Shown here piece after piece: positions 4,152-15,840 of a stretch of DNA of 34,180 nucleotides. This DNA is from Candidatus Nanohalarchaeota archaeon QJJ-7 (GTDB lineage: Archaea > Nanohalarchaeota > Nanosalinia > Nanosalinales > Nanohalalkaliarchaeaceae), in contig JALIDP010000006.1 of assembly GCA_022865215.1 (NCBI GenBank), forward strand, positions 1-34,180. The letters run 5' to 3'. Position numbers and translations under genes: made by a program. Below the pieces are notes generated by a model. That model worked only from the letters and a program-made list of their open reading frames with translations, had not been told where the DNA came from and did not search any database. Within the stretch, counting starts at the first letter, position 1, and every line of letters begins with the position of its first letter.

Positions 4152-4221
4152 TGGACCGGTCGGGATTTGAACCCTGAGCTTCCGCAGGATGCGAGGATAT
4201 CAAATCCCGGAGAGAATGAAA
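4152..4221 (-). repeat. Trailer duplication of the tRNA-Ala 3' end with internal inverted copy
   Basis: 'tggaccggtcgggatttgaaccc' at 4152-4174 and 4222-4244 (70-bp period). On the minus strand CGGGATTTGA...TCAAATCCCG is palindromic. Confidence 0.75.
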
Positions 4222-4449: not shown

Positions 4450-4523
4450 GGGCGAGGGCCGGGCCGAAAACTGACGTTTTCTTGACGACCCTCGTACGCT
4501 TCGCTCAAAGGGCGAGGGCCGGG
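4450..4523 (-). repeat. Trailer duplication of the tRNA-His 3' end, 60-bp period
   Basis: 'gggcgagggccggg' at 4450-4463 and 4510-4523, with hairpin GAAAAC-GTCA-GTTTTC between (minus strand). Confidence 0.65.
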
Positions 4524-4644
4524 ATTCGAACCCGGGGCGGGAGCGCCACAGGCTCCTAGTTTAAGCCACTCCAAACTCCGTAAGGAGTTTGCGCGTGGTT
4601 GAAACGCCACGCATTGGAGTTTAAGCCACTAACCTACCCTCGCC
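4511..4644 (-). tRNA. tRNA-His(GTG) with 60-bp insertion in the D-arm
   Basis: GCGAGGG/CCCTCGC acceptor with C73 and encoded G-1; loop CTGTGGC in stem GGAGC/GCTCC; T-arm CGGG-TTCGAAT-CCCG. Removing 60 bp restores a standard cloverleaf. Confidence 0.8.
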
Positions 4645-8824: not shown

Positions 8825-8889
8825 TGCGGGGGGTCGGATTTGAACACGAAGCTCGCCTCCGGGAGCTTCTCGGGGTTCAAATCCCTTGA
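8825..8889 (-). repeat. Trailer duplication of the tRNA-Leu(TAA) 3' end, with the 37-bp hairpin shared with tRNA-Ser
   Basis: 'tgcggggggtcggatttgaac' at 8825-8845 and 8890-8910; 'gaacacgaagctcgcctccgggagcttctcggggttc' at 8842-8878. Confidence 0.85.
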
Positions 8890-15142: not shown

Positions 15143-15232
15143 CGGGAGAACGCCCGGGGCCGGATTCGAACACGAAGCTCGCCTCCGGGAGCTTCTCGGG
15201 GTTCGGAATCCGGCTGATATACTTCGGGAGAA
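15143..15232 (-). repeat. Trailer duplication of the tRNA-Ser 3' end with the 37-bp hairpin shared with tRNA-Leu(TAA)
   Basis: 29-bp 'cgggagaacgcccggggccggattcgaac' at 15143-15171 and 15225-15253; 37-bp identical block at 15168-15204. Confidence 0.87.
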
Positions 15233-15635
15233 CGCCCGGGGCCGGATTCGAACCGGCGTAGGCGTTGCCGCCTACCCGCTCTCAACTTAGGACAGTCCTG
15301 AAATCGGAGATTTCAGTCGTGTCGAGTGAAACCTCCGGTTTCACGACAGGGCGGTACGCCCTGTTCCAAACTCCTCTGGGAGTTTGTGCACACGCACGAA
15401 CTCCGACGGAGTTCGGAGTGAAGGTCACCTGCGCTCCATTCTCGCTCGTTTCACTCGCTCGAATCCGTCTGGACTCGACCGAGCGGAGCGAGGGAGAGTG
15501 GAACTCACCTACTTCCTCCAGGAAGTAGGTTCGAACAGCTTTCCGGAGGAAAGCTGTGACGTGGTGACCTTGAGGTGGGAGGGCTCCCTCCTAAGCTCAA
15601 GGCGGGCGCATTTAGCCAGACTCTGCCACCCGGGC
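15233..15635 (-). tRNA. tRNA-Ser(TGA) with a ~315-nt intron (~15281..15595)
   Basis: GCCCGGG/CCCGGGC with G73; CCCGC/GCGGG anticodon stem; loop CTTGA(GA); variable arm TAGGCG-GCAA-CGCCTA; T-arm GCCGG-TTCGAAT-CCGGC. Confidence 0.75.
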
Positions 15636-15840
15636 CTGTGCCGCCCGGTGGGCAGATTGAGCACCGTCAGGTGCGTGACTCTGCCACCCGGGCTTTCTAT
15701 CGGGTGGCAGTTCGAGCACTGCCAGGTGCGTGACTCTGCCACCCGGGCTCTTTCCTCGCCGGGTGGCTCTGTCGAAAACGCTGGCGCGTTTTCTTGACCA
15801 GTGAACCTGGAAGGGTACACTGGATCTGCCACCCGGTCTT
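15636..15840 (-). repeat. Three tandem extra copies of the tRNA-Ser 5' end, each with a hairpin and an inverted copy
   Basis: 'gactctgccacccgggc' at 15619-15635, 15677-15693 and 15732-15748; 'gatctgccacccggtct' at 15823-15839. Hairpins GCACCTGACGGTGC, GCACCTGGCAGTGC and GAAAACGC-GCCA-GCGTTTTC. Confidence 0.85.

Follow-up and report, generated by a model that had tools for sequence, protein, structure and literature searches.

A tRNA-Ser(UGA) gene of a nanohalarchaeote with a 315-nt interruption that is probably a composite of small palindromic repeat elements

The tRNA-Ser(UGA) gene and the parts of its interruption

The window analyzed here is a 34,180-nt stretch of contig JALIDP010000006.1 from Candidatus Nanohalarchaeota archaeon QJJ-7. 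A first-pass annotation, made from the letters alone, had proposed that it holds a tRNA-Ser(UGA) gene with an unusually long intron composed of hairpins. Run with introns allowed, ARAGORN recovered tRNA-Ser(tga) at c[15233,15635], on the minus strand, with an intron of 315 nt, the length given in the annotation, at the usual position 37/38; the gene was missed by ARAGORN with default settings and by Rfam at gathering thresholds. Both exons are intact and pair with each other in the acceptor, anticodon, and T stems. The inverted pair that had been described, CCTTGAG in the exon and CTCAAGG in the intron, is present in the sequence, with the proviso that the description mixed strands: its hairpins were written on the plus strand and its exons in the tRNA sense. 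The length is also unusual as claimed, since a 2014 review gives a range of 11–129 nt for archaeal tRNA introns, a range that newer data sets may extend. The parts of the locus are as follows.

15596..15635, minus strand: 5′ exon of tRNA-Ser(UGA), with the 3′ end CUUGAG (position 37)
15596..15600, minus strand: TTGAG, the exon copy of a 5-base direct repeat flanking the insert (CUUGAGA in intronless relatives)
15281..15595, minus strand: 315-nt intron if cut at 37/38 (ARAGORN)
15286..15595, minus strand: insert of 310 nt, its inverted ends being CTTAGGA / TCCTAAG (from the sequence; the ends pair in the MFE fold)
15561..15595, minus strand: terminal portion of a 62-nt core element (match to model R1, E = 5.6e-4)
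15506..15560, plus strand: double hairpin a, two 10-bp stems, within the core ahead of GTTCCAC (BLAST matches on C1, C26, and C8)
15435..15504, minus strand: middle portion of the core, sharing 91% identity with the tRNA-Lys intron (BLAST E = 4.9e-20)
15367..15415, plus strand: double hairpin c, a pair of 8-bp stems separated by the spacer TGCACACGCA
15346..15364, plus strand: single hairpin ACAGGGCG-GTA-CGCCCTGT
15298..15349, plus strand: double hairpin b, of a type also found in frame in MsrB and PheT
15281..15285, minus strand: TTGAG, the other copy of the direct repeat
15233..15280, minus strand: 3′ exon of tRNA-Ser(UGA), spanning A38 through the discriminator base

All seven hairpins that had been named were located as perfect stems of 8–10 bp (15298–15316, 15326–15344, 15346–15364, 15367–15386, 15397–15415, 15507–15530, and 15535–15557). 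Their earlier description as a tandem array is loose: they fall into three or more module types, and do not represent one unit copied repeatedly. Counting hairpins with stems of 8 bp or more and loops of 3–6 nt in a 253,330-nt sample (about one third of the genome, window included), we found seven of 40 within the 315-nt intron and 33 in the rest of the sample (Poisson P about 4e-14). The sample as a whole is rich in hairpins, three second-order Markov simulations having given 19–26. With tRNA zones listed by hand, tRNA genes occupy just 2,521 nt of the sample yet hold 14 of the 40 hairpins, and 21 lie in tRNA genes or within 300 nt of them. The excess in tRNA genes persists when the Ser(UGA) intron is set aside (7 of 33, binomial P = 1.3e-8). 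The 310-nt insert, folded without the second TTGAG copy, reached −174.3 kcal/mol (z = −11.9), a value as low as which was seen in none of 100 shuffles. Together with the hairpin excess at tRNA genes, this strong fold places Ser(UGA) at the far end of a tendency seen across the genome. The 62-nt core alone is no more structured than its shuffles (z = −1.2 to +0.7 in the six strands tested), and we rejected it as a self-standing structured RNA. Known structured RNAs (group I, group II, or other) were likewise rejected, the Rfam gathering scan of the window having returned only three tRNAs.

Recurrence of the core and of the double hairpins

When the locus was compared by BLAST with its own genome, 42 matches were obtained up to E = 10, several of them in other tRNA genes, and 15 reached E = 1e-3 or better, the locus itself counted. 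Long introns also occur in the tRNA genes for Lys (190 nt), Arg(GCG) (169 nt), Trp (158 nt), Arg(UCG) (129 nt), Gln (129 nt), Met (106 nt), and Cys (84 nt). We built a sequence-only model, R1, from the aligned 62-nt core and searched 28 genomes of the phylum with it. At E = 1e-3 the core was found in three: 12 places in the genome under study, one in its nearest relative (G001), and nine in G007, seven of these matches being rows from which the model was built. Six of the 12 lie in five tRNA introns (Lys, which has two inverted copies, Trp, Cys, Arg(GCG), and Ser(UGA)), two lie downstream of tRNA 3′ ends (Phe and Arg), and four lie between protein genes. All nine matches in G007 are within or adjoin tRNA genes: in the introns of Ser(CGA), Gln, Gly (an inverted pair), Trp, and Ser(GCT), and downstream of Leu, Val, and Phe. 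The Gln assignment (L131) is our reading of a gene that ARAGORN called Ser, and the label of a tRNA gene at 4510–4643 of the window is similarly uncertain (called Ala or His). No match was found in plasmid records.

An alignment of 11 core copies revealed that a double hairpin stands at either of two defined sites, always directly before TTCCAC; the other aligned copies carry none, and the Arg(GCG) copy has a different hairpin group at a third site. Module content thus varies between introns. By eye, modules resembling double hairpin c were recognized in the Arg(GCG) intron, in the Gln intron of G007, and in the gene for the KEOPS protein Kae1.

The core also occurs with a double hairpin at four gene junctions of the same genome (L108, L109, L110, and L147), before genes named by eye as aEF1B, S27ae, an epimerase, and a C30 gene. 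These copies end in CTCTTA(A/G)G, zero or one base ahead of the next ATG, and read as a small open frame with the common tail K(W/R)KSPAS...GSRF...GTMW. In the nearest relative, the core copy (L124, 55–185) has direct repeats of CAGAACCGCCTCCACC on its flanks, with three copies in total.

Double hairpin b extends beyond RNA genes, being found in the reading frames of MsrB and PheT and in two further frames; a helicase-like frame is among those that hold such hairpins. A covariance model of this module, applied at E = 0.01, detected it in six of the 28 genomes at 18 distinct places once the two strands were joined, six of these places being the rows that built the model; nine are in long reading frames, five at tRNA genes, and four elsewhere or unplaced (including one on C45 of G001). 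In the six copies, 95.8% of cells pair and 9 of the 16 pairs have changed on both sides; none of 500 shuffles reached either value, and versions slid out of register gave no such signal. For double hairpin a the test is weaker, because the observed number of pairs changed on both sides (3 of 10 in stem 2, nine copies) was reached by 33 of 500 shuffles. An exact double hairpin b consensus was not found in viral contigs.

Empty sites are seen for MsrB. An MsrB match was found in 19 genomes, each of which was read at its best locus; an insertion of 18 residues (54 nt) is present at the same site in two, the genome under study and its nearest relative, and absent from 17. It forms a gap against a solved MsrB as well, and has no clear target duplication; MsrB is the one protein for which empty sites were checked. 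The Kae1 gene (L111, 6914–8038, minus strand) contains a double hairpin of a different type, and in it an insertion of about 36 residues, partly coded by the double hairpin, directly follows the first conserved motif.

Because the modules recur elsewhere, because core copies exist both with the double hairpin and without it, because MsrB has empty sites, and because the stems covary, growth of the intron by repeated hairpin acquisition, as suggested in the first-pass annotation, is well supported. The covarying stems could also be read as those of an old intron RNA under selection, acting as a guide RNA or shielding the tRNA gene from integration, with hairpins conserved for the sake of the RNA. 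The sequences CTGA/GATGA, seen by eye in the Met, Lys, and Trp introns (L009, L105, and L107), are box C/D-like, and archaeal Trp introns are described in the literature as known guides. This reading is nonetheless improbable: the same modules are in frame in proteins and are oriented either way with respect to tRNA genes, the Rfam gathering scan gave no family for them, introns differ in their modules, and seven of the nine relatives compared have no intron in Ser(UGA).

The insertion site and the splice motif

If the gene is cut after position 37, the insert starts with CUUAGGA and ends with UCCUAAG, and UUGAG stands on both sides. The nearest relative has an intronless Ser(UGA) gene with the loop CUUGAGA. 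Seven of the nine relatives compared are intronless at this gene (G001, G006, G008, G010, G017, G018, and G024); introns are present in the other two, 47 nt long in G027 and 112 nt in G002. The inverted ends span 7 bp at Ser(UGA), and inverted pairs of the core itself occur in the Lys intron of the same genome and the Gly intron of G007. The candidate for a target duplication is a single 5-base repeat, TTGAG, at a single site, Ser(UGA). Given the 7-bp inverted ends, the repeated TTGAG, and a nearest relative without the intron, the sequence pattern resembles what would be left if an element had entered a gene without an intron and duplicated 5 bases. An older intron that was later lost is also possible, because the intronless relatives belong to different genera and two of the nine relatives have an intron.

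The bulge-helix-bulge (BHB) central helix is perfect (4/4) in nine of the 12 introns tested in this genome and has three of four pairs in those of Asn and Trp, the Trp value depending on the boundary set by ARAGORN, since moving that boundary by hand would give 4/4. By contrast, the archaeal definition of the motif, in which a 4-bp central helix and two 3-nt bulges stand at the exon borders, does not describe the Ser(UGA) junction. At the 37/38 cut the central helix has only one of four pairs, with GUUG where CAAG would be needed, and no register is complete, the best shifted one having three of four central pairs and one of five in the inner helix. The view that this is an ordinary spliceable archaeal intron is therefore not supported in its present form: the central helix is missing, and the inverted ends and duplicated TTGAG resemble those of a transposable element. 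The result for the motif agrees with an insertion into a gene that had no intron.

Other features of the junction recall a normal motif. At the 37/38 cut the outer and inner helices are complete (5/5 each) and correctly spaced, so that only the central four bases fail, and a former normal motif that has lost its central helix is for this reason possible. BHB introns are present in the Ser(CGA) and Ser(GGA) genes of the same genome, and the 112-nt intron of Ser(UGA) in G002 is also of this kind. A pre-existing BHB intron that was invaded by the elements and whose central helix later mutated is an explanation that we consider possible, although less likely than an insertion into an intronless gene: the last bases of the intron repeat the exon (TTGAG) rather than pair with it, and the nearest relative has no intron.

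The absent central helix would also fit a pseudogene, in which the insertion has killed this gene copy and the serine codon UCA is served by an intact tRNA-Ser(UGA) on a stretch that the assembly lacks or by another tRNA. The assembly is 78% complete, which leaves room for such a gene. Searches of this 78%-complete assembly with the Rfam tRNA model and by BLAST with the joined exons returned no second tRNA-Ser(UGA); the presence of another intact gene is what the first-pass annotation had named as a sign of a pseudogene. With the exons intact and paired, and with good splice motifs retained in other tRNA genes that have composite introns, we regard a pseudogene as rather unlikely.

Splicing would fall to the tRNA splicing endonuclease, whose gene is present (PF01974 match at C33:20030–20311, E = 3.4e-26; TIGR00324 above its cut-off) and whose active-site region aligns well with solved enzymes. 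At the catalytic lysine, the sole PF01974 gene found (L181, 1474–2259; G000:C33:20030) reads IRAT where the solved homologs shown read RK. A second endonuclease subunit may be encoded in the missing part of the genome. Endonucleases of some archaeal lineages accept relaxed substrates, according to one report (PMC12397907). Judged from sequence, the chances that the Ser(UGA) transcript is spliced appear somewhat better than even.

Taken together, the interruption was probably assembled from several small palindromic repeats, in that a core was inserted and then enlarged by modules that occur genome-wide. On this account, a core element with inverted ends would have entered the anticodon loop of a once-intronless tRNA-Ser(UGA), leaving TTGAG, presumably the target duplication, on either side, and further double-hairpin modules of the genome-wide set would then have inserted into the core. 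The same set would have entered existing introns of other tRNA genes, the flanks of tRNA ends, gene junctions, and protein reading frames. The modules presumably move as DNA by means of an enzyme, and the transcript would still be matured, the likeliest agent being the splicing endonuclease at work on a relaxed structure. These findings suggest that hairpin repeats can create and enlarge tRNA introns. A bolder version, which we offer tentatively and with low confidence, is that the birth of a tRNA intron has been caught in the act, inverted ends and a target duplication together forming a splice substrate for a broad-specificity endonuclease, with modules then enlarging the intron and adding peptides in frame elsewhere.

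The origin of archaeal tRNA introns is an open question, and this clade has introns whose parts are recognizable elsewhere in the genome. With intronless relatives at hand, gain and growth thereby become directly testable. The locus also extends to archaea the observation that palindromic repeats can invade RNA genes as well as reading frames. Annotation of proteins and tRNAs in small archaea would have to change accordingly.

Comparable elements and copies of tRNA ends

By analogy, the elements would behave like Rickettsia palindromic elements (RPEs) or miniature elements of the MITE type. RPEs are described as short palindromic repeats of about 50–150 bp that form several families and lie in frame in unrelated protein genes (PMC10969869). 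Like RPEs, the elements studied here are palindromic, foldable, and dispersed in several copies, and they occupy in-frame positions in several unrelated protein genes, for one of which, MsrB, relatives have the empty site. Unlike RPEs, to which they are likened by description, they are archaeal, consist of double hairpins with 8–10-bp stems, and are concentrated in tRNA genes and introns. The MITEs of archaea (Sulfolobus and Haloquadratum) are described as non-coding, with inverted ends and dispersed copies. The present elements are likewise non-coding and dispersed, and candidate inverted ends of 7 bp are seen at Ser(UGA), but they are built of far shorter modules, insert in frame and into tRNA introns, have a putative target duplication at one site only, and were accompanied by no parent transposase in searches for Y1 and Cas1.

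Double-hairpin or repetitive hairpin-forming elements are also described from fungal and sponge mitochondria, in intergenic DNA and in genes (PMC2800124). They share with ours the arrangement of two hairpins and a short spacer; in contrast to ours, they are reported as not removed from transcripts, and that report does not tie them to tRNA introns (PMC2800124). With archaeal BHB introns the interruption shares the position 37/38, the presence of an endonuclease gene, and a motif that is good in most other introns of the genome, whereas it departs from them in its missing central helix, in its 315 nt set against the 11–129 nt given in the review, and in being built of dispersed repeats. In Caldiarchaeum, the gain of an intron in a tRNA gene has been proposed to involve a mobile element, with fragments of tRNA ends nearby (PMC3293823). 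That element is a 1.8-kb recombinase element (PMC3293823), whereas here tiny palindromes are the intron itself. In a search covering open-license papers, we came across none that described such elements in the tRNA introns or the proteins of these archaea.

The search for a mobilizing enzyme comprised Y1 transposases and Cas1. Y1 transposases were detected in none of the 28 genomes, and an IS200/IS605 Y1 transposase was rejected as the source. Cas1 was detected in two of the 28, neither of them the genome under study nor G007, and CRISPR-like growth driven by Cas1 was rejected on this ground.

Copies of tRNA ends form a further pattern. Scoring 5′-end copies at 14 of 16 matching bases and 3′-end copies at 15 of 18, within about 330 nt, we found that 16 of the 31 tRNA genes in this genome adjoin a copy of their own 3′ end (10 genes) or 5′ end (eight genes), two having both; 15 have neither. 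L091 is without downstream sequence. Ser(UGA) has both.

15677..15693, minus strand: copy of the tRNA-Ser 5′ end (GCCCGGGTGGCAGAGTC), repeat family D2
15732..15748, minus strand: second copy of the tRNA-Ser 5′ end, repeat family D2
15150..15171, minus strand: copy of the tRNA-Ser 3′ end that covers T arm and acceptor strand and lies downstream of the gene, repeat family D3

Such copies resemble long target duplications, as would be left by a Cas1/casposase-like enzyme or a tyrosine integrase attaching at tRNA ends, with the hairpin DNA as cargo. We give this explanation very little credence, as it leaves the insertions in introns and proteins unexplained and no Cas1 was found in the genome under study or in G007. 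The tRNA-end copies may represent another way for the same elements to reach tRNA loci. Within the window, end copies are at 15150–15171, 15677–15748, 8830–8886, and 4160–4175; others are in L013, L016, L017, L020, L022, L099, L100, L102, L106, and L107. They often surround a hairpin and carry an inverted copy of the T loop.
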